From Streptomyces pacificus (GTDB lineage: Bacteria; Actinomycetota; Actinomycetes; Streptomycetales; Streptomycetaceae): 64,000 bases of DNA. Below the pieces are notes generated by a model. It was not told the origin of the DNA. It saw only the letters and a program-made list of their open reading frames with translations, and did no database searches. This document shows positions 5,115-63,839 of the stretch, piece after piece. How positions within the stretch are numbered: position 1 is the stretch's first letter; each line of letters starts with the position of its first letter. Location of the stretch: the NCBI RefSeq assembly GCF_011766325.1, contig NZ_BLLG01000001.1, positions 434,001 through 498,000 on the forward strand, given 5' to 3'. Both the position numbers and the translations under genes were made by a program.

Positions 5115-6452
5115 ATGGCATCCCTGCCATCCACACCACGAAGACGCCGCTGGACGGCGCTGCTGGGGGTGAGCGCGCTCATGGCCACCGGCGGCGGGTT
5201 CCTCGCGCCCTCCGCCGCGGCCCAGACGGGGACGGCCCAGGCGGTCGACTTCCCGACGCGCTGCATCCCTCCGCCGATCTCCGGCCTCCCGCCCATCAAC
5301 GGCACGACCACGGGCGAGATCACCGTCGACAACGCCGCGCCGAGAGTGGGCGACGAGGTCACCGTCACCTACACGGTCGCCAAGCCCGCCGCGGGCAACC
5401 CCGTCGACCTCGCCCTGCCCGCCGACATCATGACCCCCACCGGCACAGTGGCCCTCGGCGGTGCCCAGTCCGGCAGCGTCAGCGTCGCCGGGCCGAAGAA
5501 GAACCCGCCCGTCCCCGGCAAGGCACCGTTCCCGCCGTTCTCCATGACCGGCACCTTCACGGTCACCGCGCCCGGCTCGATCACTCTCTCCCCGGGCGAC
5601 TACAACATCCACACCAGCTACATCATGGAGTTGGACACGCCCTGCACGGTGACGGACCCGCCCGCGCCCGTCTCGCGGACGATCGTCGCCACCGAGCAAC
5701 CCGGCGCCAACGAACGGTCCATCCAACTCGGTACGGCCTCCGGGGGACCGGGCGACGAGGTGACCGTCACCGGTGCGAAGTTCACCCCGCTCGCGGACGT
5801 CACCGTCGCCGGCCGGGCCGGCCCGGCCGAGACCGGGGACAGGGTGACCGTCAAGGCGAGCGCGACGGGCACCTTCTCCACGCGGCTGGCGGTCGCCGAC
5901 AAGGCCACCACCGGGGTCGTCGCCTACGAGGGCACCGTGTGGAACGACGCCAAGGGCGCGGGCCCGGCGGCGTACACCGTCGTCGACGACACCCCCGTCC
6001 CCCCGGACAGCCAGAAGCTCTCCACGGCGATCACGGCAGGCACCCTGTCCATGACGCAGGCCGGTGACACCGTCCGGCTGACGTCCGTCGACTTCGGCAA
6101 GGGCGGCGCCGCCACCGGGGACCTCCACACGGTGACCGTCAAGGACTTCCGCGGTGGGCCCGCCGGCTGGTCCCTGACCGGCAAGGTCACCGACTTCACC
6201 GGCCCCGGCGGGAAGATCGACGCCGGCCGGCTGAGCTGGACACCCGCCTGCACCACCGAGGCCGGCAGCCCGAGCACCTGCGCGGCGGGCTCCGCCGGCG
6301 TCGTGGGCACCGCAGGCGCCACCCTGGCGTCCACGCCCGACGCGGCCCTCAGCGGCGGCGAGTTCACCGCGGGAGCGGAGGTTTCGCTGGACGTGCCGGC
6401 GTTCACCGCCCCCGGCGCCTACTCCGGCGTACTGACCCTCACCCTCACCTGA
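5115..6452 (+). CDS. Secreted WxL-domain-type surface protein
   Basis: 445 residues. Start ATG 5115 follows a GGGGGAAG ribosome-binding site; the frame extends upstream to 5016 but without a signal-like start. A classical signal peptide (basic RRRRW, hydrophobic core, cleavage near AAAQ at about residue 37) shows export. The mature protein has repeated Ig-like/beta-sandwich segments (about 55-180 and 195-300). The C-terminal domain (about 305-445) contains TVKDFRGGPAGWSLTGKV, a good match to the WxL signature (Asp-x-Arg-Gly ... Trp-Ser-Leu). WxL proteins attach non-covalently to the cell wall in Gram-positives. The next gene encodes the usual partner type, which supports the call. Confidence 0.78.
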   Translation: MASLPSTPRRRRWTALLGVSALMATGGGFLAPSAAAQTGTAQAVDFPTRCIPPPISGLPPINGTTTGEITVDNAAPRVGDEVTVTYTVAKPAAGNPVDLALPADIMTPTGTVALGGAQSGSVSVAGPKKNPPVPGKAPFPPFSMTGTFTVTAPGSITLSPGDYNIHTSYIMELDTPCTVTDPPAPVSRTIVATEQPGANERSIQLGTASGGPGDEVTVTGAKFTPLADVTVAGRAGPAETGDRVTVKASATGTFSTRLAVADKATTGVVAYEGTVWNDAKGAGPAAYTVVDDTPVPPDSQKLSTAITAGTLSMTQAGDTVRLTSVDFGKGGAATGDLHTVTVKDFRGGPAGWSLTGKVTDFTGPGGKIDAGRLSWTPACTTEAGSPSTCAAGSAGVVGTAGATLASTPDAALSGGEFTAGAEVSLDVPAFTAPGAYSGVLTLTLT

Positions 6453-6511
6453 CACCCACCGCGGGCCGGGCGCGCACCCGGCCGGCCCGCCCGACCCGGA
6501 GGACCGCACCC

Positions 6512-7570
6512 GTGCGAAGACTGCCCGCGCCCGGCCTTCGGCGCTCCGTGCTCCTGCTGCGGGAGCCTGCACGCGTCCTTCCGCGGCCCGCACCTCTCCT
6601 CCCGCTGCTTGCGACCCTCCTCGCGCTGGCCGCGCTCCTGCACGCCGCTCCCGGGGCCCCCGCCGCTCCCGGGGCCCCCGCCGCTCCCGCGGCCGACAAC
6701 GGTGAGTGGTCCGTCGAACCCGCGGCCTCAGGACCGGGCCGCCGCCCGTACTTCTACCTCTCCGCCGATCCGGGCACCACGCTCACCGACAGCGTCACCG
6801 TGACCAACAAGACCACCGCGCCGATGACGTTCCTGCTGTATGCGGCGGACGCCCACAACACCCCCAGGGACGGCGGCTTCGCCGTCCGCACCCGCCAGGA
6901 GAGGCAGCGCGGGGTCGGCGCCTGGGCCGAGCCTGACCGCGACAGGGTGACCGTGCCCGCCCGCTCCTCCGTCACCGTCCCCTACACCCTGACCGTCCCC
7001 GAGGACGCAGAACCCGGAGACCACCCGGGGGCGCTGGTCGCCCTCGACGAACGCGTCGCCGCCGGGCCCGGGGGAGCCGTGGGCGTCGGCATCCAGCGGG
7101 CCGTCGGCGCCCGCGTCCACCTCCGCGTGAACGGGCCGGCCGTGCCCGCGCTCGCCGTCGAGGACGTCCGCTACAGCGCGGACAAACCCCTGGTGCCGGG
7201 TACCGGCGACAGCAGCGCCCTGATCTCGTACACACTGCACAACCGCGGCAACGTCACCCTCGACCCGAAGGTCACCCTGCGTGCAGAGGGCCTCTTCGGC
7301 CGCACCCTGCTGGCCCGGGAGCTGACCGGAGTCCCCGGCGAACTGCTGCCCCGGCAGAAGATCCGGCTCACCGCGGACTGGGCCGGAGCCCCGCAGCTCG
7401 ACCGGGGCGAAGTGACCCTCACCGCGGCTGCGGGCGACGTCACCGGATCCGGCGCGGTGTCCTTTCTCGCCGTGCCCTGGCTGCTCGCGGCCGCCCTGGC
7501 CACCGCCGGTGCCGGGGCGCTCCTGCGGCTGTGGCTCCGGGCACGGCGCCGGGCCGTACGGGGAGGCTGA
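6512..7570 (+). CDS. DUF916-like membrane protein, partner of the WxL protein
   Basis: 352 residues, GTG start with GGAGGA eight bases upstream. An N-terminal signal/anchor with the repeated APGAPAAPGAP segment is followed by an extracellular domain (about 65-175, SVTVTNKTTAPMTFLLYAAD) of the kind found in the WxL-interacting DUF916 family. A second beta domain follows (about 185-310), then a C-terminal membrane helix (about 318-342) and an Arg-rich cytoplasmic tail. Such proteins sit in the membrane, face outward and bind peptidoglycan and WxL proteins. It lies 59 bases after the WxL gene, so the pair is probably an operon. Confidence 0.75.
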   Translation: MRRLPAPGLRRSVLLLREPARVLPRPAPLLPLLATLLALAALLHAAPGAPAAPGAPAAPAADNGEWSVEPAASGPGRRPYFYLSADPGTTLTDSVTVTNKTTAPMTFLLYAADAHNTPRDGGFAVRTRQERQRGVGAWAEPDRDRVTVPARSSVTVPYTLTVPEDAEPGDHPGALVALDERVAAGPGGAVGVGIQRAVGARVHLRVNGPAVPALAVEDVRYSADKPLVPGTGDSSALISYTLHNRGNVTLDPKVTLRAEGLFGRTLLARELTGVPGELLPRQKIRLTADWAGAPQLDRGEVTLTAAAGDVTGSGAVSFLAVPWLLAAALATAGAGALLRLWLRARRRAVRGG

Positions 7571-7931
7571 CGCCCGCCCTTCCGGCCGTCCCCGCCCGCC
7601 CCGTCCCCCGTCCTCCCGCCGGGGCGCGCGGGCTCGCGGAAACGAGCCGCCGCGGCGGTACGGGGCGGGTGCGGGACGGCGCCGGGAAGGCGGGGGACGC
7701 CCCGGCCACGTGCGGCCGGCGGGTGCGCTCGCCCAAGCGGCCTGCCGCCCGCCACCGCGCGCCGGCCCAGGGGCGGCGCGCGAACGCCGCCGGGGCGGGG
7801 CCCGGGGGCGTCCCGTACGGGCCGGGCCCCGGGGCCCCGGGGCATACTCGCCCCCCCCCGGCGGTCGCCCCGGTCCGCCCCGCCGGGCATCTGGTACGTC
7901 CACGCCCCGCGGATCGGGGAGAATGGCCCGC
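7571..7931. other. Very GC-rich intergenic region before era
   Basis: 361 bases, nearly all G and C, with no gene I can support. The reading frame of era is open across it, but nothing here resembles Era homologues. A GGGGAGA ribosome-binding site ends at 7922. Confidence 0.5.
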
Positions 7932-8879
7932 ATGAGCGTTCACACCCCCGGATCCGAGGCCCCGCACCGCGCCGGCTTCGCCTGCTTCGTCGGCCGCCCC
8001 AACGCGGGCAAGTCCACCCTCACGAACGCTCTGGTGGGCCAGAAGGTGGCCATCACCTCGACCCGGCCCCAGACCACCCGGCACACCGTCCGCGGCATCG
8101 TCCACCGGCCCGACCTGAACGCCCAGCTCGTCCTCGTGGACACCCCCGGCCTGCACAAGCCGCGCACTCTGCTCGGCGAGCGGCTGAACGACATCGTGCG
8201 CACCACCTGGGCCGAGGTCGACGTGATCGGCTTCTGCCTGCCCGCCGACCAGAAGATCGGCCCCGGCGACCGCTTCATCGCCAAGGAACTGGCCGGGATC
8301 AGAAAGACCCCCAAGGTGGCGATCGTCACCAAAACCGACCTCGTCGACTCCAAGGCCCTGGCCGAGCAGCTCCTCGCCGTCGACCGCCTGGGCAGCGAGC
8401 TGGGCATCGAGTGGGCGGAGATCGTCCCGGTGTCGGCCGTCGGCGACCGGCAGGTCACCCTGCTCGGCGACCTCCTCGTCCCGCTGCTCCCCGAGAGCCC
8501 CCCGCTCTACCCGGAGGGCGACCTCACGGACGAGCCGGAACAGGTCATGGTCGCCGAGCTGATCCGGGAGGCGGCGCTGGAGGGCGTACGCGACGAGCTG
8601 CCCCACTCGATCGCGGTGGTGGTCGAGGAGATGCTGCCGCGCGAGGGACGCCCGGCGGACCGGCCGCTGCTCGACATCCACGCCAACGTCTACATCGAGC
8701 GGCCCAGCCAGAAGGGCATCGTCATCGGCCCCAAGGGCAGCCGCCTCAAGGAGGTCGGGACCAAGTCCCGCAAGCACATCGAGGCGCTCCTCGGCACGCC
8801 GGTCTTCCTCGATCTGCACGTCAAGGTCGCCAAGGACTGGCAGCGGGACCCGAGGCAGCTGCGCAGGCTGGGCTTCTGA
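7932..8879 (+). CDS. era: GTPase Era
   Basis: 315 residues. Era binds 16S rRNA near its 3' end and assists 30S subunit maturation. GTPase motifs are visible: G1 GRPNAGKST, G3 DTPG and G4 TKTD, followed by the C-terminal KH RNA-binding domain with GIVIGPKGSRLKEVGTKSR. Two in-frame ATGs lie close together; 7932 is chosen because GGGGAGA is nine bases upstream, whereas 7923 would overlap it. Era, YbeY and PhoH lie in the same neighbourhood, all tied to rRNA processing. Confidence 0.95.
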   Translation: MSVHTPGSEAPHRAGFACFVGRPNAGKSTLTNALVGQKVAITSTRPQTTRHTVRGIVHRPDLNAQLVLVDTPGLHKPRTLLGERLNDIVRTTWAEVDVIGFCLPADQKIGPGDRFIAKELAGIRKTPKVAIVTKTDLVDSKALAEQLLAVDRLGSELGIEWAEIVPVSAVGDRQVTLLGDLLVPLLPESPPLYPEGDLTDEPEQVMVAELIREAALEGVRDELPHSIAVVVEEMLPREGRPADRPLLDIHANVYIERPSQKGIVIGPKGSRLKEVGTKSRKHIEALLGTPVFLDLHVKVAKDWQRDPRQLRRLGF

Positions 8880-8882
8880 CCA

Positions 8883-8899
8883 GGGTGCCGGTGGCACCC
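8883..8899 (+). terminator. Short hairpin after era
   Basis: GGGTGCC-GGT-GGCACCC directly after the era stop, between convergent genes. A 7-bp GC stem without a T-run. Confidence 0.4.
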
Positions 8900-9090
8900 C
8901 GCGGGTGGGGGCCGGCCCGGCCCCGTCCGGTGGCCACCAGCCCCGGCTCGGCAGCCGCCGGCCCGGCCCCGTCCGGGTGGGGCAGACCGCAGGGTCCCGG
9001 CCGGCACGCACCGGATCGGGGCCCGGCCCCCGGCGTGGCGGCAACTGCTCCCGGGCCTTAGGGCCTCCTGGCCGCCGTTCCTGCCGCGCC

Positions 9091-9357
9091 TCAGGCGCCT
9101 TCCTTCAGCAGCCGGGTGATCAGCTTCCGCTGCGCCTCGGACAGCCGCGGGTCCGCGCAGTACACCGTCCTGCCGTCGACCGTGAGCTGATACCGGAAGC
9201 CGTCCGGCACCCCCGCCGGCGGGCTGTCCCGGCCGTCCCTCATCGCCTGCTCGGCCAGGGCGTGCCACTCCTGGGCGTCGGGCCGCCCCGAGGTGTCCAT
9301 CGCGCGGACCCGCTCGATGCCGGCGAACCCGCCCGTGCGTCGTACCTGGATGCGCAT
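9091..9357 (-). CDS. Emfourin-like protealysin inhibitor
   Basis: 88 residues. Emfourin is a small protein inhibitor of protealysin-type M4 metalloproteases, encoded directly downstream of the protease gene, as here (117 bases after the M4 stop). Matching features are the N-terminal MRIQVRRTGGFAGI segment, a central ALAEQ region, and FRYQLTVDG before the C-terminal helix (about 72-86). ATG 9357 is chosen because the sequence resembles the family from there on. The linked pair suggests an intracellular or non-classically exported protease kept in check. Confidence 0.85.
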   Translation of the reverse strand: MRIQVRRTGGFAGIERVRAMDTSGRPDAQEWHALAEQAMRDGRDSPPAGVPDGFRYQLTVDGRTVYCADPRLSEAQRKLITRLLKEGA

Positions 9358-9473
9358 GCCTCCTGTTCTAGTACGGATCGCGGTCGGCCGGCAGGCGTAC
9401 CGGTCCGGGTCGGCGGGCGTATACCGGTCGGGGTCGGCGGGTGCACCGGATCCCGCGGCCGGGCACGTCGACC

Positions 9474-10562
9474 TCACTCGGCGCGCACACCGACCTGGGA
9501 CCACGCCTTGACCACGGCCTCGCGCTCCTCGCCTCTGCCGTAGCGCGCCGTGGCCGCCGCGACCGTCTCCCCGGCGAAGTCGGTGAACGACGCGTCGGCC
9601 CGCAGCCCTCCCGAGGTCATCGTGTCGTACCAGATCCGGCCGGCCCGCTCCCACGCCTTGCCGCCCAGCTGGACGGCGAGCAGGTGGAAGGCGTGGTTGG
9701 GGATGCCCGAGTTGATGTGGACACCGCCGTTGTCCCGGCCGGTGCGGACATAGTCGGCCATCGTCGCAGGCTGGGGGTCCTTGCCGAGGACGTCGTCGTC
9801 GTACGCCGTGCCCGGCGCCTTCATCGACCGCAGCGCCACCCCGCCGACCCCGGGGGCCAGCAGCCCGGCACCGATGAGCCAGTCGGCCCGGTCCGCGGTC
9901 TGGCCCAGCGTGTACTGCTTCACCAGGGAGCCGAAGACGTCCGACACCGACTCGTTCAGCGCACCGGGCTGGCCGAAGTAGGCGAGGTTCGCCGAGTGCT
10001 GGGTGAAGCCGTGCGCCAGTTCGTGGGCGATGACGTCGACCGGCCCGGTGAAGTCGAGGAAGATCTCGCCGTCACCGTCGCCGAAGACCATCTGCTCGCC
10101 GTTCCAGAACGCGTTGCCGTAGTCCTCGCCGTAGTGCACGGTGGCGTCGAGCGGCAGCCCTGCGCCGTCGATCGAGTCGTGGCCGTACGCCGTCAGCAGC
10201 AGCTCGAACGTCGCGCCGAGGCCGGCGTACGCGCGGTTGACGGTGGCGTCCCGGACGGGCCCGTCGCCTTCGGAGCGCACCCGTGTGCCGGGCAGCACGG
10301 TCCTGTTCCCGGCGTCGTACAGGGTGCGCTGCGGGCCGGGGACGACCTCCTGGGCCGGGGGAGGGGCGCCGGTGACGGTGGTGAGGCGGCGGCCGGTGCG
10401 GTGCGCGGCGTCCGCCACCAGTGTTCGACGGGCCGCAGCGGCGACGGCCGGGTCACCGGCACGGGCCAGCCGGTCGAGCAGATGCGGCGGCACGATGCCG
10501 CAGAAGACGGGCATGGGGCGGGAGACGGGCATGAGGCGGGAAGCGGGCATGAAGGAGTCCAT
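9474..10562 (-). CDS. Protealysin-type M4 metalloprotease
   Basis: 362 residues from ATG 10562. Zinc metalloprotease of the thermolysin family: HELAH (about residues 180-184) supplies two zinc ligands and the catalytic Glu, and NESVSDVFG (E about 204) the third ligand. VHINSGIPNHAF carries the catalytic His region. Instead of a signal peptide and long FTP/PepSY propeptide there is a short N-terminus with IVPPHLLDRLA, the propeptide motif of protealysin-like enzymes. The exact start is uncertain: GTG 10598 and ATG 10550 are also in frame, and the repeated MP-x-S/V-R segment makes the choice hard. The emfourin gene follows. Confidence 0.88.
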   Translation of the reverse strand: MDSFMPASRLMPVSRPMPVFCGIVPPHLLDRLARAGDPAVAAAARRTLVADAAHRTGRRLTTVTGAPPPAQEVVPGPQRTLYDAGNRTVLPGTRVRSEGDGPVRDATVNRAYAGLGATFELLLTAYGHDSIDGAGLPLDATVHYGEDYGNAFWNGEQMVFGDGDGEIFLDFTGPVDVIAHELAHGFTQHSANLAYFGQPGALNESVSDVFGSLVKQYTLGQTADRADWLIGAGLLAPGVGGVALRSMKAPGTAYDDDVLGKDPQPATMADYVRTGRDNGGVHINSGIPNHAFHLLAVQLGGKAWERAGRIWYDTMTSGGLRADASFTDFAGETVAAATARYGRGEEREAVVKAWSQVGVRAE

Positions 10563-10721
10563 GTCCGGCAATGTGGCACTGCGCCGTGCAGTTGTCACCG
10601 GTTGCCACGATGACGGATCAAATAGAGTGATCTGTCATATCCGGGCGTTGCTGTTCGATCGTCCCGCATACTGAAACGGGGCCGGTGCCCGGGCCCGGGC
10701 TCCGCTAGGCTCATCCGCATC

Positions 10722-10748
10722 ATGCGTTTCGGGCTGCTTCTTCTTAGC

Positions 10749-10769
<21 letters not shown>
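10722..10769 (+). CDS. leuL: leuA leader peptide, 15 residues
   Basis: The short frame reads MRFGLLLLSRRGEGL. It has five leucines out of 15, four of them consecutive, and three use CTT, a rare codon in high-GC Streptomyces. It ends 114 bases before leuA and overlaps the first arm of a long hairpin. This is the classic design of transcription attenuation: ribosome stalling at Leu codons during leucine starvation would change which RNA structure forms. Confidence 0.75.
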
Positions 10770-12653
<1,884 letters not shown>

Positions 12654-12686
12654 CGCCCCCGGCCCCTCGGGGCCTCCCGCGGCCCG

Positions 12687-12721
12687 CCGAACCCCGCCAC
12701 CCGCACAGGGGCGGGGTTCGG
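12687..12721 (+). terminator. leuA terminator
   Basis: A perfect 12-bp GC-rich stem (12687-12698 with 12710-12721) and an 11-base loop, 33 bases after the leuA stop. Confidence 0.7.
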
Positions 12722-12824
12722 CCATGTCCGGGTGATGTGGCGTCCGGATACTGACGCCACCTCCGCGATGTGGCTAACATCACGTCAACGCGGCAATGTT
12801 GCCGGAGGGTCACGGAGGTGCGAC

Positions 12825-13544
12825 GTGCTGCCAGCCCGCGGACAGAGCGGCCGGAAACCGCCCATCCACGGCTATCGTGGACTTCGTGTCTTCGGGACGC
12901 GCACCTCGTGGACCACGGTCGGCGACGGCGAGTTCTTCTGCCCCGAATGCGGAGGGGACCGCAACTACCGCCGCCGCACCGGCCGTCGCCGCTTCACCGT
13001 CCTCGGGGTCCCCGTCCTCCCGCGCGGACACGCCGGTCCGGTCGTCGAATGCACCGCCTGCCACAGCCACTTCGGCACCGACGCCCTGGACCACCCCACC
13101 ACCGGCCGCTTCTCCGCGATGCTCCGCGACGCCGTGCACACCGTCGCGCTCGCCGTCCTCGCCGCCGGGGGAACCTCCGCCCGCCCGGTCCGGCGGACCG
13201 CGGTCGCCGCGGTCCGTGCCGCCGGGATCAGCGACTGCACCGAGGACCAGCTGACGGCCCTGGTGGAGGCACTCGCCGCCGACACCGGCCGCTTCATCGC
13301 CGACGCGGGACCCTGCGGCGCGGCCCTCGCCATCGAACTCCACGAGGCGCTGGAGCCGCTCACCCCGCATCTGGCCCCGGCCGGCCGCGAGTCGATCCTG
13401 CTGCAGGGCGCGGGCATCGCCCTCGCCGACGGGCCCTACACCCCGGCGGAGCGGGAGGTACTGACCACGGTCGGCAGCGCGCTGCAGCTGTGCGCCGACG
13501 ACACGGCACGCCTGCTCGCCGCCGCCCGCACGCCGTCCCCGTAG
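12825..13544 (+). CDS. TerB-like protein with zinc ribbon
   Basis: 239 residues, GTG with GGAGG six bases upstream. Near the N-terminus two CxxC pairs (FCPECGG and ECTACHS) form a probable zinc ribbon, with VLGVPVLPRGH between them. The rest (about 100-239) is an all-helical TerB-type domain with ALVEALAADTG and a terminal ADGPYTPAEREVL segment. TerB domains occur in tellurite-resistance and other stress or surveillance proteins, but the activity is unknown. No other ter genes are nearby, so it stands alone. Confidence 0.75.
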   Translation: MLPARGQSGRKPPIHGYRGLRVFGTRTSWTTVGDGEFFCPECGGDRNYRRRTGRRRFTVLGVPVLPRGHAGPVVECTACHSHFGTDALDHPTTGRFSAMLRDAVHTVALAVLAAGGTSARPVRRTAVAAVRAAGISDCTEDQLTALVEALAADTGRFIADAGPCGAALAIELHEALEPLTPHLAPAGRESILLQGAGIALADGPYTPAEREVLTTVGSALQLCADDTARLLAAARTPSP

Positions 13545-14285
13545 CCGTAGGGGCATCCCGGCCCCGGTCCCCGGCCTCTCGGCACGTACGCCGTCCAGCC
13601 GGACAACCGGCGCCGATCGGCATCCCGGCCGTGCGGCGTACGTCCGGCCGCGCGGTGCACGACGGCTGCCGACCGGCCGGATCTCCGTCGCCGTCTCCGT
13701 CGCCGCACGGAAGACCGTACGCCCGGCCCGGTCGGGAGGGAGCTCCGCGTGGGCAGAGTGCCCGGGAACGTGTGGACGCGGGCGCGAGCGGCACGGACCT
13801 GCCGGCGGCCCTCGGCGGCCCTCGACGGCCCTCGGCGCCCTCCGGCCCCGAGGCCGGCGGGGGAGCGGTGGGGAAGGACGGCCGGACGGGCGGCAGACGG
13901 GCACCCGGAACCGATCGGGCCGGCCCGTCGTCCTGGACAGTGATCGTCACCGGCCCACAGGCGTCGGCGGATGCCTCCGCCGGAGCCGGGCGCGGGGCCG
14001 GACAGCGGCCGCGCGCCCGGTCGACAGGCCGTGGACCGGCAGCACCGCGGGCCCGGAGGTTCGCGATGCAGACGCAGACGCAGACGCACGGGCACGAGGG
14101 GGGGAGCAGGCACCGGGGCAGACAGAGGCAGAAGCAGCCAGCCAGCCAGTCAGTCAGCACGCACGCACCGGGGGCGACGGCACCGCTCGGAGGAGGGGTG
14201 CCACGCGGCCGGAGGCGACCGCGGAACGCAGCGGTACCCGGCCGCATGCGGGCCGGGGCGCCGCAGACGAGAGGAAAGCACGACC
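13545..14285. other. 740-base region without a supported gene
   Basis: High GC. Several open frames exist, but none has a convincing start, domain or codon pattern. Positions about 14065-14165 hold short simple repeats (CAGACG units, then CAGC/CAGT units). The end holds GAGGAAAG at 14271-14278, the ribosome-binding site of the beta-lactamase gene. Confidence 0.5.
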
Positions 14286-15254
14286 TTGGAAACCTCACGG
14301 GCCCAACGGACCCGCCGCACACTGCTCACCGCCGGTGCGGCGGCCGCACTGGCCGCGAGCCTGCCCTCGGCCGCGGTGGCGGCCACGGAGCGACGGGACG
14401 GGCCATCCGCCGGCGGACCGCACGGCGCCGACCGGCACGGCAGGTCCCGAACCGACGGGATCTCCCTCCGTCTCAGCGAACTCGAGCGGACGCACTCCGC
14501 CCGGCTCGGAGTCTTCGCGCGCAACACCAGGACGGGCAGGACCGTGGCCCACCGCGCCGACGAACTCTTCCCCATGTGCTCGGTGTTCAAGACACCGGCC
14601 GTCGCGGCCGTCCTCAGGGACCTCGACCGCAACGGCGAGTTCCTCGGCAAGCGCATCCACTACACCGAGCAGGACACCGAGGAGTCCGGCTACGCCGTCA
14701 TCACCGGCCGTGCGGAGAACCTCGCCAACGGCATGACCGTGGAAGAGCTCTGCGACGCCGCGATCCGCTACAGCGACAACGCCGCGGCCAACCTCCTGCT
14801 GCGCGAACTCGGCGGCCCCTCCGCCGTCACCGGCTTCTGCCGCTCCCTCGGGGACGACGTCACCCGGCTCGACCGATGGGAGCCCGGGCTGAACTCGGCC
14901 GAGCCCTGGCGTGCCGAGGACACCACCGATCCGCGGCACATCGCCGAGACCTACTCCCGGCTCGTCCTCGGCGACGCACTCGCCGGCCCGGACCGGCAGC
15001 GGCTGACCGGATGGCTGCTGAACAACACCACCGGGACGCTGCGCCTGCGCGCGGGACTCCCCGACGACTGGACCCTGGGGGACAAGACGGGCGCCGGCGC
15101 ATACGGCACGAACAACGATGTCGGTATCGCCTGGACCCCCGACGGTTCCCCCGTCGTCCTCGCCGTCCTGACGACCAAGCCGCAACCCGATGCCGCCCCC
15201 GACAACGAACTGGTCGCCCGCACGGCCCAACTGCTCGCCGACGAACTCGGCTGA
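14286..15254 (+). CDS. Class A beta-lactamase, Tat-exported
   Basis: 322 residues. It would hydrolyse beta-lactams outside the membrane. The start is a rare TTG at 14286, chosen because GAGGAAAG is seven bases upstream and the protein then opens with a twin-arginine signal (RTRRTLLTAGAAAALAA, cleavage near AVAA at about 33). All class A motifs are present: S99-V-F-K102, S163-D-N, E199-P-G-L-N203 and K267-T-G. A cysteine directly precedes the active serine, as in several carbapenem-hydrolysing class A enzymes, but that does not settle the spectrum. No regulator gene is adjacent. Confidence 0.9.
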   Translation: METSRAQRTRRTLLTAGAAAALAASLPSAAVAATERRDGPSAGGPHGADRHGRSRTDGISLRLSELERTHSARLGVFARNTRTGRTVAHRADELFPMCSVFKTPAVAAVLRDLDRNGEFLGKRIHYTEQDTEESGYAVITGRAENLANGMTVEELCDAAIRYSDNAAANLLLRELGGPSAVTGFCRSLGDDVTRLDRWEPGLNSAEPWRAEDTTDPRHIAETYSRLVLGDALAGPDRQRLTGWLLNNTTGTLRLRAGLPDDWTLGDKTGAGAYGTNNDVGIAWTPDGSPVVLAVLTTKPQPDAAPDNELVARTAQLLADELG

Positions 15255-35863: not shown

Positions 35864-37090
35864 TCAGAGTCCTCCATCGGTGGTGAGCAGGTGGAGCAGG
35901 GGTGCGTCCGGGAGCGGCTCGCCGCCCTCCCAGGCCCGGGCGAGCGCGCCGACGGAGGCGAGGTCGCCGAGGAGTACGCCGCCGACGAGCCGGTCGCCGC
36001 GGACGACGACCTTCCGGTAGGCGCCGCGGGTGGCGTCGGCGAGGCGGACGACGTCGTCCCCGGGCCGCGGCGAGGGCTCCCCGAACGCGGCGATGTCGAA
36101 GGCGCCGGCGGATCCGAGGGTGAGCCGGGTGAGGGACCGGGTGCCGGTGTAGCGCCGGCCCCCCGGTCCCGTGTCCGGTACGGGTCCGGCCGCCAGGACC
36201 GAGGCGAGCACGTCGGCCTGCTCCAGGGCGGGGGCCGCCAGCCCGTAGACGGTGCCGGCGTGTTCGGCGCAGTCGCCGACGGCGTGGACGCGCGGGTCGG
36301 ACGTGGTCAGGGTGTCGTCGACGACGACACCCCGGCGGACCGCGAGGCCGGCGTCCGCCGCGAGGCCGGCGCGGGGCCGGACGCCGCAGGCGAGGACGAC
36401 GTGGTCGGCGTCGAGGACGAAGCCGTCGGCGAGTTCGACGCCGGTGACGGCACCGCCGCGGTGGCGCAGCCCCCGGGCGTGGCACTCGGTGTGGACCTCC
36501 GCGCCGAGCCCCTCCAGATGGCGGCGCACCAGGCCGCCGCCCTCCGGGTCGAGATGGCGGTCCATCAGGGTGGGTCCCTGGTGGGCGACGACCACGTCCG
36601 TACCGCGTTCCGCCAGCGCCCGCGCGGCCGAGACGCCGAGCAGCCCGCCGCCGACGACGACCGACCGGCTGCCGGGCCGGGCCGCGGCCGCCAGCGCCTG
36701 GCAGTCGTCGAGGGTGCGGAAGGGGTGCACGCCGCCGGGCAGCCCGCCGTCGAGCCCCCGCAGCGGCGGCAGCACCGGGTTCGAGCCGGTCGCCAGCACC
36801 AGGTGGTCGTACCCCGCGACCGTGCCGTCCGCGCAGTGCACGGTCCGCGCCCGGCGGTCGATCCGCACCGCCCGCACCCCGTGCCGCACCGCCGCCGCGT
36901 CCCCCGGGACCGGGGGCAGCGCGATCACCTCGGGGCCGTACCGGCCTGCCAGGACATCGGCCAGCAGCACCCTGTTGTAGGGGGCGTGCGGCTCCTCGCC
37001 GAGCAGCGTGACGTCGTACGCCGGCGCGAGCTGCCGCGCCAGCCGCGCTCCCGCCATCCCGGCGCCGACCACCACGATCCTCGCATCCAT
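35864..37090 (-). CDS. FAD/NAD(P)H-dependent oxidoreductase of the nitrite reductase operon
   Basis: 408 residues, ATG start. It resembles the N-terminal flavoprotein half of NirB: FAD fold IVVVGAGMAGARLARQL, NAD fold SVVVGGGLLGVSAARAL, and VHAVGDCAEHAGTVYGLA for the second FAD contact. There is no [2Fe-2S] or siroheme domain. The likely role is electron transfer to nitrate or nitrite reductase (compare NasB-type reductases). First gene of the operon; the GlnR-like site at 37113-37139 is just upstream. Confidence 0.82.
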   Translation of the reverse strand: MDARIVVVGAGMAGARLARQLAPAYDVTLLGEEPHAPYNRVLLADVLAGRYGPEVIALPPVPGDAAAVRHGVRAVRIDRRARTVHCADGTVAGYDHLVLATGSNPVLPPLRGLDGGLPGGVHPFRTLDDCQALAAAARPGSRSVVVGGGLLGVSAARALAERGTDVVVAHQGPTLMDRHLDPEGGGLVRRHLEGLGAEVHTECHARGLRHRGGAVTGVELADGFVLDADHVVLACGVRPRAGLAADAGLAVRRGVVVDDTLTTSDPRVHAVGDCAEHAGTVYGLAAPALEQADVLASVLAAGPVPDTGPGGRRYTGTRSLTRLTLGSAGAFDIAAFGEPSPRPGDDVVRLADATRGAYRKVVVRGDRLVGGVLLGDLASVGALARAWEGGEPLPDAPLLHLLTTDGGL

Positions 37091-37112
37091 GGATGCAGAC
37101 TGAGGGGTGGGT

Positions 37113-37139
37113 GTTACCCGTCGGCATCCCGGTTGTTTC
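37113..37139 (-). promoter_or_regulatory. GlnR-like half-sites upstream of the nir operon
   Basis: GTTAC, GCATC and GTTTC at 11-base phasing (37113, 37124, 37135). The outer two resemble the GTnAC and GaAAC half-sites of the actinobacterial nitrogen regulator GlnR, in mixed orientation; the middle one is degenerate. Confidence 0.45.
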
Positions 37140-37282
37140 CCGCGCGGAACACTGCCCTCAGCCCCCGCCCGCCCGGGGTGTGAGGGGCCCGGCCGGCGGC
37201 CGCGGCCCGGGGAACCTCAGAGGCAGCTCAAGACTCACGGGTTCGATGGACGGTGCATGCATCGTCTCCGTAGGGTCACCCC

Positions 37283-47358: not shown

Positions 47359-47584
47359 TCCGGCGGGGTCCCCGTGCCCGCCCGCGCGCCCCCGCGCTGC
47401 GCTGCGCGCCGGATCGTGCGCCCGCGTCCACCGGTCCGGAACAGGCCCTTCCGGTATGCCCGCCGGGGCGCCCCTCTTCCGCCACCACGGTCCGTGCGGG
47501 ACGCTCGCAGTGAGGCGGCGTAGCGTGTTGTGGCATCCCGGAGGACACCTCCGGGACCTCCGGCCGTGAACAGGGAGGCATCAA

Positions 47585-48853
47585 GTGGTCGACGCACATC
47601 GGACTTTCGTCATCGTGGGCGGGGGACTCGCCGGGGCCAAGGCGGCGGAGACCCTCCGTGACGAGGGCTTCACCGGCCGGGTGATCATCATCGGTGACGA
47701 ACGCGACCACCCGTACGAACGGCCGCCGCTCTCCAAGGGATATCTGACCGGCAAGGACCAGCGGGACTCCGTCTTCGTCCACGAACCCGCCTGGTACGCC
47801 CGGCACGACGTCGAGCTGCACCTCGGCCAGACCGTCACCGCCGTGGACCGGGAGGACCGCTCCGTACTGCTCGGTGACGGCACCGCCGTGCACTACGACA
47901 AACTGCTGCTCGCCACCGGCGCCGAGCCCCGCCGTCTCGAAGTGCCGGGGACGGACCTGGCCGGCGTCCACCATCTGCGCCGGCTCGCCCACGCCGACCG
48001 GCTGCGCCAGGTCCTGGCCGCCCTCGGCCGCGACAACGGCCATCTGGTGATCGCCGGGGCGGGCTGGATCGGGCTGGAGGCCGCGGCTGCCGCCCGCGGC
48101 TACGGGGCCGAGGTCACCGTCGTCGAACCCGAGCCCACTCCGCTGCACCAGGTCGTCGGCCCCGAGCTGGGGCAGCTCTTCGCCGACCTGCACCGGGAGC
48201 GAGGGGTCCGCTTCCACTTCGGCAGCCGGCTCTCCGAGATCGTCGGACAGGACGGCATGGTGCTCGCCGCCCGCACCGAGGACGGCGACGAGCACCCCGC
48301 CCACCACGTCCTCGCCGCGATCGGCGCCGCCCCCCGCACCGCTCTCGCCGAGACCGCGGGACTGGCGCTCGTCGACCGCGCACACGGCGGCGGCGTCGCC
48401 GTGGACGCCTCCCTGCGCACCTCCGACCCGGACATCTACGCCGCCGGCGACGTCGCTGCCGTCCACCACCCGCTGCTCGGCATCCGGCTGCGCGTGGAGC
48501 ACTGGGCCAACGCACTGCACGGGGGCCCCGCCGCGGCCCGCGCCATGCTCGGCCGCGAGGTCTCCTTCGACCGGGTCCCGTACTTCTTCTCCGACCAGTA
48601 CGACCTCGGCATGGAGTACTCCGGCTGGGCCCCGCCCGGCAGCTACGACCAGGTCGTGCTGCGCGGCGACGCGGGCAAGCGCGAGTTCATCGCCTTCTGG
48701 CTCAAGGACCGCAAGGTCCTCGCCGGGATGAACGTGAACGTGTGGGACGTCACAGGGGACATCCAGCAGCTGGTCCGCTCCCGCAGCGCCGTCGACACGG
48801 ACGCCCTCGCCGACCCGGGCACTGCGCTCAGCGCTGTCGCACCCGCCCCTTAG
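47585..48853 (+). CDS. Ferredoxin-reductase-type FAD oxidoreductase
   Basis: 422 residues, GTG with GGGAGG upstream. Two Rossmann folds: [17 protein letters not shown] (FAD) and LVIAGAGWIGLEAAAAA (NAD). PYERPPLSKGYLTGK and DIYAAGDVAAVHHPLLG, then VEHWANALHGG, are typical of the rubredoxin/ferredoxin reductases that feed monooxygenases and P450s. No ferredoxin or P450 is adjacent. It is related in architecture to the reductase domain of the protein at 61357. Nine bases separate it from dnaG, so co-transcription is likely. Confidence 0.88.
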   Translation: MVDAHRTFVIVGGGLAGAKAAETLRDEGFTGRVIIIGDERDHPYERPPLSKGYLTGKDQRDSVFVHEPAWYARHDVELHLGQTVTAVDREDRSVLLGDGTAVHYDKLLLATGAEPRRLEVPGTDLAGVHHLRRLAHADRLRQVLAALGRDNGHLVIAGAGWIGLEAAAAARGYGAEVTVVEPEPTPLHQVVGPELGQLFADLHRERGVRFHFGSRLSEIVGQDGMVLAARTEDGDEHPAHHVLAAIGAAPRTALAETAGLALVDRAHGGGVAVDASLRTSDPDIYAAGDVAAVHHPLLGIRLRVEHWANALHGGPAAARAMLGREVSFDRVPYFFSDQYDLGMEYSGWAPPGSYDQVVLRGDAGKREFIAFWLKDRKVLAGMNVNVWDVTGDIQQLVRSRSAVDTDALADPGTALSAVAPAP

Positions 48854-58656: not shown

Positions 58657-58729
58657 TCCCCTGTAGCTCAATTGGCAGAGCAGCCGGCTGTTAACCGGCA
58701 GGTTACTGGTTCGAGTCCAGTCGGGGGAG
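58657..58729 (+). tRNA. tRNA-Asn (GTT), copy 1
   Basis: 73-base cloverleaf: acceptor TCCCCTG/CGGGGGA, D-arm GCTC...GAGC, anticodon loop CTGTTAA with anticodon GTT, T-loop TTCGAGT between ACTGG and CCAGT. The 3' CCA is not encoded. Confidence 0.95.
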
Positions 58730-58734
58730 CGCGA

Positions 58735-58807
58735 TCCCCTGTAGCTCAATTGGCAGAGCATTCGGCTGTTAACCGGAGGGTTGCTGGTTCGAGTCCAGCC
58801 GGGGGAG
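58735..58807 (+). tRNA. tRNA-Asn (GTT), copy 2
   Basis: Nearly identical to copy 1, five bases downstream. Differences lie in the anticodon stem and variable region (TTCGG/CCGGA) and one T-stem pair. Anticodon GTT. The 3' CCA is not encoded. The pair is probably one transcript ending at 58844. Confidence 0.95.
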
Positions 58808-58819
58808 CAGAAGCGAAAG

Positions 58820-58844
58820 AGGGGCCCCTTGGGGGGTCCTTTTT
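58820..58844 (+). terminator. Terminator of the tRNA-Asn pair
   Basis: AGGGGCCCC paired with the GGGG-GGTCCT segment (one mismatch) and followed by a run of five T, 12 bases after the second tRNA. Confidence 0.75.
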
Positions 58845-58984
58845 CATGTCGCGGCCCGGGGAACCGCGCGGACGGGCAGCGCCGTCCTCATGATCGTGGC
58901 GTTGCCGACCATCCGAAGCAGGAGATCGTATGAGCGGCTATGCTGCGGCAGACGGCGCGCACAAGTGTGCGCGACGCGCCGTTG

Positions 58985-59058
58985 GGGGCGGTAGCTCAGC
59001 CGGTTAGAGCAGCGGACTCATAATCCGTCGGCCGTGGGTTCGAGTCCCACCCGCCCCA
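58985..59058 (+). tRNA. tRNA-Met (CAT)
   Basis: 74 bases: acceptor GGGGCGG/CCGCCCC, D-arm GCTC...GAGC, anticodon loop CTCATAA (CAT), T-arm GTGGG-TTCGAGT-CCCAC, discriminator A. Anticodon CAT also occurs in tRNA-Ile2, but the sequence fits elongator tRNA-Met. CCA is not encoded (CCG follows). Confidence 0.9.
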
Positions 59059-59061
59059 CCG

Positions 59062-60613: not shown

Positions 60614-61360
60614 ATGACCCGTACCTCGTCATCGTGCTCCGTTCGGAGCGCCGGACATGTGATCTCCGCACTCGCCGTATCGCTGCTGATCCTCGCAGTG
60701 GCCCTCAGTCAGTCCCCGGAGGCCTCCGCGGCAACGGCCGATCCGATTCCCGGCTCCCCCCTCGACGCCCATCAGAAGGGACTCCGCTATGACATCGGCG
60801 TCCATGAGATCGCCCGGCTGGCGGCGCTCATCGCCTACGGACTGATGGTGGCCACCGTCGTATTCGGCGTAGTGCTGCGGCTGAGATTCATGCAGCACGC
60901 GGTGAGCCGGGCGACGGTCCACGGAGCACATATGACGATGGGGCTGTCCGCGCTGATCTTCGCCGGTGTGCACGGCATGTCCTTCGTCTACCAGCCGGTC
61001 TGGGGCATCGGGCCGACCGAGCTCGTGGTGCCGTTCGCCGGGGGGCTCCAGAGGATCCCCGTGGGACTCGGAGTCCTCGGGATCGAGTTGGGCATCGCGG
61101 TCGGTTGCTCCCTGCTGCTGCAGCGCAGGTTGGGCTACCACCGATGGCTCAGGTTCCATCAACTCGCCTACGCCGCTTTTCTGCTGATGTGGCTTCATAT
61201 ATTCCTGGTGCACCCGGAGCCGCGCCATCCCGGCTTTGTCGCGGCTTCCGTGGCGGGCGGCGCCGGCGCCTGCCTCCTGGCGTTCCTCATCAGGGTCCTC
61301 CCCTCGCGCTCCCGATTGCGCGAGCGCACTGCCGCAGTCCCCTCGGAGGTCGTACCGTGA
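60614..61360 (+). CDS. Ferric-reductase-like heme membrane protein
   Basis: 248 residues, ATG with AAGGA eight bases upstream. An N-terminal signal/anchor (about 13-38) is followed by about six hydrophobic segments (about 65-90, 105-125, 130-150, 155-175, 185-205, 210-230). Histidines sit inside helices in the ferric-reductase/cytochrome b pattern: VHGAHMT, FAGVHGMSF, YHRWLRFHQLAY and WLHIFLVHPEP, suitable for two b-type hemes. It would carry electrons across the membrane. Its stop overlaps the start of the ferredoxin-reductase gene by GTGA, so the two are coupled. Confidence 0.78.
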   Translation: MTRTSSSCSVRSAGHVISALAVSLLILAVALSQSPEASAATADPIPGSPLDAHQKGLRYDIGVHEIARLAALIAYGLMVATVVFGVVLRLRFMQHAVSRATVHGAHMTMGLSALIFAGVHGMSFVYQPVWGIGPTELVVPFAGGLQRIPVGLGVLGIELGIAVGCSLLLQRRLGYHRWLRFHQLAYAAFLLMWLHIFLVHPEPRHPGFVAASVAGGAGACLLAFLIRVLPSRSRLRERTAAVPSEVVP

Positions 61361-63117
61361 CGATTCCCGCCCGTGGCCCACAGACCGGACACCACCTCGG
61401 TTCACAGCTCCGGAGCGCCCCACCCGCACCCTCCGGCGCGGCATCCGGGCGAGCCGCCGGCGCTCGGCCCACCTCGACGACGGCGCCACCCCGCAACCCC
61501 GCGCAGAGCGGCCTCGGGCCTACGGGCTCTGAGGGGCGGTCGCCGCAGATGCCTCCCGGGCAGCACCCCGTGGATCCCGTCCGGCACTCGGGCCCGCCTG
61601 CCCCGTCGCTCGTCCCGGAACCGGCCCCGGTGCGGCTCAGCGTCGACAACGGCCGTTGCCGTGTCTACGGCATCTGCCAGCAAGAAGCCCCCGAGCTCTT
61701 CCGCGTCTCGCAGAGCGGATCGCTCCACTACACGCGGAGCGTCCCCGCGGAGTTCGCGGCGAAGGCCAGGCAGGCGGCGCGCTGCTGCCCCATGCAGGCG
61801 ATCGAGACCGTCCGGCGCCCCCCACACACGCCGCGGCCTTCGCAGGACGGGAACGGAGCCGCACCACGCACACGCCGGCACCGACCGCAGCGCGTCGTCG
61901 TGGCGGGCGGCGGCCTCGCCGGGCTCAGCGCAGCGGCCCGGCTGCGCGAGCGCGGCTTCGAGGGGGAACTTGTCGTCGTGGGCGAGGAGCGCAGAAAGCC
62001 CTACAGCAGACCTCCGCTCTCCAAGCAGTACCTCTCGGGCGACCTCCGCGCGGAGCAACTGGCACTGACCACCGACGAGTCCGTCGACGCGCACTGGCTC
62101 CTCGACACGCCCCTGGTGAGCCTCGATGCGTACGGCAGGTCGGTGCAGCTCAGAGGCGGCGAGCGGCTGCCCTTCGACGGGCTGGTGCTCGCCACGGGGG
62201 TGGACGCCAGGCGGCTACCCGAGACGCCGCTGTTCAGCGATCGCATACGCACCATCCGGACCCTCGAGGACGCCGCGGTGGTGCAGCACGCCATGCGGGT
62301 GGCGAGAGCCCGCCGGCTCGTCGTCCTGGGAGGCGGGTTCATCGGCTGCGAACTGGCCTGCACGGCCCGCCGTCAGGGGATGGACGTCACCCTCGTCGTG
62401 CACAGCACGCCGCTGCTCCGACGTGCGCTCGGCTCCCGTGTCGGGGAGGTGGTCGGGTCGATCCAGGAACGCGCCGGTGTCGAACTGAAGCTCGGTACGG
62501 GCGTCGACGAGTGGCGGGACGAAGGGGTCGGGCTGTCGCTGAGGCTGGGATCGGGTGAAGTCCTCGAGTGCGACTTCGTCGTGCTCGGCCTGGGCGGCGT
62601 CCCCCGCACCGAATGGCTGCGGGACAGCGGACTCGAGGTCTCCGACGGAGTGCTGTGCGGTCCGACCTGCCATGCGGTGGACGTGCGGGGGAACACGATG
62701 CCCTGGATCGTCGCCGCCGGGGATGTCGCACGATGGCCCAACACGCGCTTCGACACCGTCCCCCGGCGCGTCGAGCACCACATCCACGCGGTCGAGATGG
62801 GGCAGCACGCCGCCGACTCGCTCCTGCGCGGTCCCGGAAGCGCGGCCCGGTTCAGCCCGGTACCGCGTTTCTGGTCGGAGCAGCACGGGGTTCGGATCCA
62901 GGCCGTGGGCATGCCCGGGCTGGCGGACGGCGCCACGGTGGTCGAAGGCTCGCTGCGCAAGGAGCGGTTCGTGACCCGCTACACCCGGGCTACCCCGCGA
63001 GGCCACCAGATCGTGGGCGCTGTCGCGTTCGACATGCCGCTGGAACTGCTCGGGCACAGGGACTCCATCGGGGATGTCCTTGCCGGGCAGCCCCCGACGC
63101 ACACCGGGAAGGTCTGA
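61357..63117 (+). CDS. Ferredoxin-FAD reductase fusion protein
   Basis: 586 residues, GTG start overlapping the preceding stop. After an 85-residue low-complexity N-terminus comes a P450-type ferredoxin domain (about 90-150): SVDNGRCRVYGICQQEAPELF-like spacing with C101 and C107, and CCPMQAI (C143/C144), probably a [3Fe-4S] or [4Fe-4S] cluster. The rest (about 178-586) is a ferredoxin reductase with FAD fold VVVAGGGLAGLSAAARL, RPPLSKQYLSGDL and NAD fold LVVLGGGFIGCELACTA. Electron flow NAD(P)H to FAD to cluster to the membrane heme protein is the likely scheme. Confidence 0.85.
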   Translation: MTIPARGPQTGHHLGSQLRSAPPAPSGAASGRAAGARPTSTTAPPRNPAQSGLGPTGSEGRSPQMPPGQHPVDPVRHSGPPAPSLVPEPAPVRLSVDNGRCRVYGICQQEAPELFRVSQSGSLHYTRSVPAEFAAKARQAARCCPMQAIETVRRPPHTPRPSQDGNGAAPRTRRHRPQRVVVAGGGLAGLSAAARLRERGFEGELVVVGEERRKPYSRPPLSKQYLSGDLRAEQLALTTDESVDAHWLLDTPLVSLDAYGRSVQLRGGERLPFDGLVLATGVDARRLPETPLFSDRIRTIRTLEDAAVVQHAMRVARARRLVVLGGGFIGCELACTARRQGMDVTLVVHSTPLLRRALGSRVGEVVGSIQERAGVELKLGTGVDEWRDEGVGLSLRLGSGEVLECDFVVLGLGGVPRTEWLRDSGLEVSDGVLCGPTCHAVDVRGNTMPWIVAAGDVARWPNTRFDTVPRRVEHHIHAVEMGQHAADSLLRGPGSAARFSPVPRFWSEQHGVRIQAVGMPGLADGATVVEGSLRKERFVTRYTRATPRGHQIVGAVAFDMPLELLGHRDSIGDVLAGQPPTHTGKV

Positions 63118-63338
63118 TGAAGAGGCGTGACCAGCGCCGGCGCCGAGCCCGGCAGTCGTTCCACGGCGGGCCACTGCGCCAGGCGCTCAACCTGCCCGCG
63201 CGTCTCGGTGTGCGCTGGCTCGTGATATCCGTCATCGTGGCGATCGCCATGGCGCTCTACGCCTACGTCATGATCACCGCATCGCCCATGCCCCCCGGTC
63301 GGGCCCCCGCGGGCACGTCGCCCGCCGCGTCCCCCTGA
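63117..63338 (+). CDS. Small single-span membrane protein
   Basis: 73 residues; ATG overlaps the preceding stop by one base (TGATG), so it is coupled. A very basic N-terminus (MKRRDQRRRRARQS) precedes one membrane helix (about 34-56, WLVISVIVAIAMALYAYVMI) and a Pro/Ala-rich outside tail. By orientation rules the N-terminus is cytoplasmic. Probably an accessory subunit of the heme/ferredoxin-reductase complex. No family recognised. Confidence 0.65.
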   Translation: MKRRDQRRRRARQSFHGGPLRQALNLPARLGVRWLVISVIVAIAMALYAYVMITASPMPPGRAPAGTSPAASP

Positions 63339-63839
63339 GGAACACCGGGCCGGGCAGCGGCACCAGACGGGCGATTCCCACCAGATGCCACCCGACGGCA
63401 GGCACCCCGGTGGCCGACACCGAGCGGTGCCGGTCCTTGCGCGCCGCGGCAACCGGCTGGATCGACGACCATGCCCGGCCGACGCGTGCTCGGGTACGGC
63501 TTCTGTTCTCCCACCGGGCTGCGTCGGCACGGGGCTACCTCGGCACCGGGCCGCGTCGGCACGGGGCTACCTCGGCACCGGGCTGCGTCGGCACGGGGCT
63601 ACCCCGCCCTCCCGGCCGACCACTGTCCGCGGGCCCGCGGACGCCCGAGACGTCAGGTGGTGCGGCGCCGGGGTCGTTCACATCCTCGCGGACCGCCCAC
63701 CCGAAGGCCCATCGGGTGGGTTCGTCCGCCGCTTTCCCCCTTACGTGCCGGCGGGCTTGGCTCTAGTCTCGACCAATCGCTTGCGAGTTACCTGCCGGTT
63801 AACAAGTCATTGAGCGTGCCCCCGGGCCCGGAGGTCGAT
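63339..63839. other. Intergenic region before the acyl-CoA synthetase gene
   Basis: 501 bases. It contains a 32-bp tandem repeat (63513-63602) and, from about 63740, an AT-richer promoter-like part before the GTG at 63840. No gene supported. Confidence 0.5.
63513..63602. repeat. 32-bp tandem repeat, 2.8 copies
   Basis: Units beginning ACCGGGC(T/C)GCGTCGGCAC start at 63513, 63545 and 63577; the last is truncated. Near-identical copies. Confidence 0.8.

Follow-up and report, generated by a model that had tools for sequence, protein, structure and literature searches.

Why would a ferredoxin and reductase of the kind that serves P450 enzymes be encoded together with a membrane cytochrome, and where would the electrons go? 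The question is raised by three overlapping forward-strand genes in a 64,000-nucleotide stretch of the 6.7-Mb Streptomyces pacificus genome (contig NZ_BLLG01000001.1, positions 434,001 to 498,000; hereafter the window, with coordinates counted from its first letter). These genes encode a 248-residue, short ferric-reductase-domain (FRD) membrane cytochrome (gene 1), a 586-residue ferredoxin-ferredoxin reductase fusion (gene 2) and a 73-residue small membrane protein (gene 3). We propose, with a probability of roughly two in three, that this operon would encode a dedicated transmembrane electron-export chain, in which electrons of NAD(P)H reach an acceptor beyond the membrane by way of the ferredoxin and a pair of hemes.

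Gene order and the membrane cytochrome

Gene 1 (60614 to 61360) and gene 2 (61357 to 63117) share the four bases GTGA (61357 to 61360), which hold the GTG start of gene 2, and gene 3 (63117 to 63338) begins with the ATG inside TGATG (63115 to 63119). These overlaps and coordinates agree exactly with those of a first-pass annotation of the same DNA. A purine-rich stretch lies ahead of all three starts, and translation of the three genes is probably coupled.

The gene 1 protein scored 31.1 bits against the Pfam family Ferric_reduct (PF01794; cut-off 28), which was found above its curated cut-off in all five operon cytochromes scanned (the window's and four others). An alignment of 22 cytochromes from 24 loci, the window's included (L034 and L084 were omitted as duplicates of L032 and L037, their operon DNA being 99.8% and 100% identical, respectively), contained 20 invariant columns, among them the proposed heme ligands H106 (60929 to 60931), H120 (60971 to 60973), H182 (61157 to 61159) and H195 (61196 to 61198). 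The pairs H106/H120 and H182/H195 have NOX-like spacing, with 13 and 12 residues between them. The first-pass annotation had described helix-embedded His pairs like those of ferric reductases and had named their loss in homologues as evidence against its reading; all four residues are kept in 22 of 22 proteins. In the FRD survey of PMC3591440, most bacterial forms with a single domain are missing at least one of the two inner heme ligands, and a short form with all four His is uncommon.

Loops on the H106/H182 side hold eight Lys and Arg residues and those on the other side three, with helix limits set from a structural model and hydropathy, and the H106/H182 side is accordingly predicted to lie inside and the H120/H195 side outside. 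The model, built with AlphaFold2 from six sequences, reached a predicted local distance difference test score (pLDDT) of 68.1 and a predicted template modelling score (pTM) of 0.56. One structural comparison of this model listed STEAP1 (Z 11.9), STEAP4 (11.3), STEAP2 (11.3), SpNOX (9.7), DUOX1 (9.3) and NOX2 (8.8), as well as NOX5, which is only suggestive of an FRD fold because unrelated helical proteins stand among the matches (6w6x at 10.5 and the de novo design 8tn1 at 9.5). The gene 1 sequence itself gave no match to solved structures at E ≤ 1.

The ferredoxin-reductase fusion

After an N-terminal extension, Pro-rich and some 90 residues long, gene 2 encodes a ferredoxin domain (Fer4_13 and Fer4_15; 61630 to 61818) and then a Pyr_redox_2/Reductase_C flavoprotein (61888 to 63114), an FAD/NAD(P)H ferredoxin reductase to which BphA4-type and putidaredoxin reductases are the nearest sequences of solved structure. 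Pfam thus recovered both halves of what had first been annotated as a P450-type ferredoxin fused to an FAD/NAD reductase. The ferredoxin is of the single-cluster kind and carries the motif C101-x2-Y104-x2-C107...C144-P, with cysteines at 61657 to 61659, 61675 to 61677 and 61786 to 61788 (initiator Met counted). Its third cysteine, initially left as C143 or C144, resolves to C144, because the preceding residue is C, L or V in relatives whereas 'CP' is constant. The general form C-x2-[Y/F]-x2-C...C-P was found in all 22 loci, 19 with Tyr and three with Phe, a count that includes L033, L037 and L085, which lie outside the scripted pattern and show the motif in their frames. Ferredoxins of the CXX?XXC(X)nCP type serve P450s and held a [3Fe-4S] cluster in all cases examined in PMC6237146, and by analogy the window's ferredoxin probably holds one too.

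Ferredoxin and reductase are fused in 4 of the 22 loci and encoded by separate genes in the other 18. Since a ferredoxin-reductase fusion is named in M. xanthus in PMC6237146, the fusion itself is not new; what is new is its membrane FRD cytochrome partner. Two further ferredoxin-reductase-like flavoproteins are encoded in the window, at 35864 to 37216 on the reverse strand and 47570 to 48853 on the forward strand, and both fall outside the operon's branch.

Synteny, distribution and subgroups

All 24 loci examined (22 once the two duplicates are removed) have the order cytochrome, ferredoxin, reductase. They come from several actinobacterial families; named loci belong to Mycobacterium (two), Kitasatospora, Microbacteriaceae, Frankia and Gandjariella. 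In L088, which runs up to the end of its contig, the reductase is incomplete and lies in two pieces. The synteny that the first-pass annotation had proposed as a check therefore holds for this core, whereas the exact three-gene form, with the fusion and gene 3, is confined to the window and three other loci.

We consider the unit rare, because few genomes matched. The cytochrome was found at E < 1e-75 in 6 of 392 genomes of the window's genus (next best match, 6e-23) and, at E ≤ 1e-30, in 11 of 394 genomes of the class, comprising the window's own and ten others that all belong to one family, while among 346 genomes of the phylum the window's genome alone matched at that threshold. An alignment of three proteins detected six loci in a search of genome contigs where a single-protein search found none, and the viral contigs searched for the operon cytochrome yielded none.

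The loci fall into three subgroups, with one (L038) consisting of the core alone. Subgroup A comprises the window, L070, L071 and L072, has the fused gene 2 followed by gene 3, and accounts for four of the six matching genomes of the genus. In subgroup B (L031, L069, L032/L034, L033, L035, L036, L037/L084 and L085) ferredoxin and reductase are separate; BlaI and an M48/M56-like peptidase are neighbours in 10 of the 24 loci, and an MFS transporter in 9 of the 24 (8 and 7 of 22, respectively, when duplicates are set aside). None of these neighbours occurred in the subgroup A flanks examined. Subgroup C consists of nine Frankia-type loci (L086 to L094), again with separate genes, and in the loci read the ferredoxin has a long N-terminal extension, which is Pro-rich in L094 and L089. 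In this subgroup an additional gene seemed at first to separate the cytochrome from the ferredoxin, but it proved to be this extension of the ferredoxin frame (L087, L089 and L094).

Within subgroup B, L032 is NZ_CP063325.1, a 19.7-kb annotated Mycobacteroides abscessus plasmid that carries the operon. At 6213 to 15095 of this plasmid the operon stands with TauE/SafE, BlaI, M56-like peptidase and MFS genes, adjoined by a MerR regulator and a heavy-metal P-type ATPase, and across the operon the sequence of L034, a Mycobacterium contig, is almost the same. A second plasmid match of gene 1, in Mycolicibacterium aubagnense, has 31.5% identity over 52%. Near two other subgroup B loci (L031 and L035) are genes resembling an arsenic operon. 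Related repeat-protein families lie near the operon in the same two loci (13406 to 19816 in L031, a genome of the window's genus, and 2678 to 16231 in L035, Kitasatospora humi) and may be carried on the same island; the one repeat protein scanned, at 13406 to 14977 of L031, contains a BNR repeat.

Comparison with other FRD loci

For comparison we used 52 other FRD loci of the window's genus with 1.5-kb flanks, drawn from two surveys in which many sites were found twice. None of the 52 carried a match to the operon reductase within these flanks at E ≤ 1e-3, whereas 51 carried ApbE and 23 a NuoF-like protein (E ≤ 1e-5); a weak ferredoxin-like match (27 to 31% identity) occurred in four at E ≤ 1e-3. 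Conversely, neither ApbE nor the NuoF-like protein was matched at E ≤ 1e-3 in any of 23 operon loci tested, with one query each taken from L012 (domains checked by Pfam), and the ApbE matches of the window's genome lie on another contig. The pairing of cytochrome and reductase is therefore specific to these loci, as no other FRD locus of the set carries the reductase and nearly all carry ApbE. L012 itself is an FRD cluster of the genus with ApbE, the NuoF-like protein, a ferredoxin-like gene and a Ser-rich single-span protein ending in SGAS, and L011 and L014 hold genes similar to those of this cluster.

In a cytochrome tree, a single branch (support 100/99) split 22 operon cytochromes from 32 other FRD proteins, the latter being what remained, after repeats were dropped, of 46 of the 52 control loci that gave an FRD row at E ≤ 1e-4. 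This split shows coherence and is not an independent test, because the operon label itself follows from similarity searches. In the reductase tree, 21 operon reductases (L032, L084 and L088 omitted) stood apart from six others (99/100). Both trees recover subgroups A and C, while the reductases of subgroup B do not form a single group. From these sequences, the cytochrome and reductase units seem to have been inherited together.

The small membrane protein

Gene 3 matched no Pfam family and no PHROG or PADLOC entry at E ≤ 0.01, and its NCBIfam match stayed below threshold (12.2 bits, cut-off 100). With one predicted span, it bears out its earlier description as a single-span protein of no known family. 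Eleven Lys and Arg residues precede the span and one follows it; the Arg-rich N terminus is predicted to be cytoplasmic, and a conserved TAxPMPPxxAPA lies on the predicted outer side. Homologues with 51 to 66% identity stand directly 3' of gene 2 in L070, L071 and L072, overlapping it by 1 or 4 bases, and the four proteins share 30 invariant columns. Among the 392 genomes of the genus, gene 3 was found at E < 1e-36 in four, exactly those with a subgroup A cytochrome, and two more gave weak matches at E 8e-4 (G018 and G170). Inspection by eye of 15 loci other than subgroup A revealed no similar small protein after the reductase. The flavinylation motif SGA[S/T] is absent from the window's gene 3 and was not seen by eye in those of L071 and L072; SGAS occurs once, in the tail of the L070 homologue.

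Proposed electron path and alternatives

In the chain that we propose, the reductase part of gene 2 would oxidise NAD(P)H with FAD and pass single electrons to its own fused ferredoxin, which would dock at the cytoplasmic face of the gene 1 cytochrome. Electrons would then enter the inner heme (H106/H182), cross to the outer heme (H120/H195) and leave to an acceptor outside the membrane. On weak evidence, our best guess for this acceptor would be a metal ion or some other small oxidant in the cell envelope, since metals are reduced by FRD relatives, and BlaI, membrane peptidase and transporter genes accompany subgroup B. In subgroup A, gene 3 may act as a single-span partner of the cytochrome that contributes to stability, docking or acceptor access. 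The compact NAD(P)H-to-membrane-heme chain suggested by the first-pass annotation is supported as far as sequence goes, with its histidines kept, its core syntenic and its pairing specific.

Several observations weigh against this export chain, which is read from sequence. The structural model of gene 1 is modest (pLDDT 68, pTM 0.56), gave no Foldseek match at E ≤ 0.001 (the best row was STEAP2 at 0.037) and has unrelated helical proteins in the same Z range as the FRD proteins. The second NAD(P)-binding motif of the reductase differs between subgroups, so that either NADH or NADPH may be the donor, and the L033 ferredoxin, from a Mycobacterium metagenome-assembled genome, has an in-frame stop (3030 to 3224) that reflects decay or a sequence error. 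The hint of a metal acceptor stems from the neighbours of subgroup B, not from the window's subgroup. Using a simple gene caller, we found no acceptor gene common to the flanks of the window, L070, L071 and L072, where the only shared family was a transporter-like pair in L070 and L071.

Among the alternatives, the one that survives best, although we regard it as unlikely, is a split NADPH oxidase, in which the outer heme of the same chain would reduce oxygen to superoxide for signalling or competition. The four histidines are as in NOX enzymes, and SpNOX, DUOX and NOX2 are among the matches of the gene 1 model. A His four residues after the outer-pair His corresponds to His-119 of NOX enzymes in PMC3591440; at this position, four residues after H120, eight of nine Frankia-type relatives have His (L089 has Gln), but Phe stands there in the window protein and in the other three members of subgroup A. 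The linkage with BlaI and MFS genes in subgroup B argues indirectly against an oxidase, as it suggests an inducible resistance role.

Less probable still is a chain that delivers its electrons to an extracytoplasmic redox enzyme whose gene lies elsewhere; MsrQ, an FRD protein, is known to supply MsrP in this way (PMC5676040). The first heme His, replaced by Arg in MsrQ/YedZ according to PMC3591440, is His in all 22 operon cytochromes. The window's genome does contain three Oxidored_molyb matches, but none lies on the operon's contig, and we rejected membership of gene 1 in MsrQ at 9.5 bits against the NCBIfam MsrQ equivalog model (cut-off 130).

It is quite improbable that gene 2 is an ordinary P450 redox partner and the membrane cytochrome merely its neighbour: its domains are indeed those of class I P450 partners, and a P450 motif occurs in 2 of 23 operon loci, 3.7 and 5.2 kb away, but the stretches of the other 21, including all 64 kb of the window, contain none, and the synteny and the parallel grouping of cytochromes and reductases also speak against it. 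Reverse flow, with electrons entering at the outer face or from quinol to reduce ferredoxin or NAD+ inside, is very improbable, since b-type cytochromes can in principle run either way but reductases of the BphA4 and putidaredoxin reductase type normally oxidise NAD(P)H, and the flanks examined around the operon in the window, L070, L071 and L072 showed no gene for an electron donor.

Returning to the export chain, we can tentatively sketch a wider and distinctly less certain picture, in which the operon may encode a three-component enzyme of the FRE/NOX kind. A [3Fe-4S] ferredoxin would relay electrons from a BphA4-type reductase to an FRD cytochrome with two hemes, and subgroup A would add a dedicated small p22phox-like single-span subunit. 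Elsewhere in actinobacteria the system might serve, under inducible BlaI/peptidase control, to reduce toxic metals or other oxidants at the cell surface, and mobile DNA might account for part of its spread.

Surrounding DNA

The next gene downstream is acyl-CoA synthetase-like, as first annotated (AMP-binding, PF00501), but it is not part of the overlapping set: it starts about 500 bases past gene 3 with no overlap, and we rejected an operon that includes it. Short GC-rich direct repeats (tcggcacggggctacc) lie between gene 3 and this gene, at 63500 to 63620. Three tRNA genes (Asn, Asn and Met; 58657 to 59060) stand about 1.6 kb upstream of the operon and may represent an insertion hot spot. 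Alignment of the upstream DNA of the four subgroup A members revealed no clear common control site, except for a short stretch in the window and L070. In L072, a second FRD-like gene (8167 to 8997, reverse strand) stands head to head with the operon in G327; its product is 31% identical to an operon cytochrome and had no Pfam match at 1e-3.

Relation to known systems and implications

Section 10 of PMC8238504 describes FRD clusters (PF01794) that include a NuoF-like protein or have PF00175 as a fused domain, and some are already thought to draw electrons from NAD(P)H; that section makes no mention of a ferredoxin paired with a BphA4-type reductase. The MsrQ-like/ApbE flavinylation clusters, which are common in actinobacteria, resemble the window's operon in having an FRD cytochrome and a likely cytosolic NAD(P)H input and in that a small Ser-rich single-span protein can be present. 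They differ in their input, which in the window's operon is a P450-type ferredoxin with a BphA4-type reductase, as well as in the lack of SGA[S/T] in the window's gene 3 and of ApbE and NuoF-like proteins in the operon loci (0 of 23). With apbE adjacent in none of these 23 loci, we rejected membership in this cluster type.

SpNOX and FRE likewise have an FRD domain with two His pairs in NOX-like spacing. Gene 1, however, is an FRD only, its flavoprotein being separate and of the Pyr_redox_2 family, unlike their fused flavin domain (an FNR-type FAD/NADPH domain in the NOX family), and a ferredoxin is inserted in the chain. MsrPQ with the flavin reductase Fre is similar in that its FRD membrane protein may receive electrons from a soluble flavoprotein encoded apart from it (PMC5676040), but YedZ/MsrQ lacks the first heme His, no ferredoxin is involved and the window's operon has no linked MsrP. 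Class I P450 systems such as FdR1/Fdx3/CYP147G1 of Mycobacterium marinum share the CxxYxxC...CP ferredoxin and an adjacent reductase (PMC6237146), whereas the partner here is a membrane FRD cytochrome instead of a P450. The operon can be described as a split FRE/NOX-like system with P450-type electron input. Our search of the open-access literature, which leaves most subscription papers outside it, found no description of the operon or of a BlaI/peptidase/MFS set with it; in kind, electron export by FRD proteins is known, and it is the P450-type ferredoxin/reductase input module that is undescribed in the literature searched.

Iron uptake, defence and signalling all make use of FRD proteins to carry electrons through membranes. 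If the proposed chain is correct, these proteins would in some actinobacteria be driven by an additional type of cytosolic input, taken from P450 chemistry, and ferredoxin/reductase pairs otherwise annotated as P450 partners would gain a function. The recurrent presence of BlaI, membrane peptidase and MFS transporter genes beside subgroup B operons could lead experiments to both the natural signal and the acceptor.

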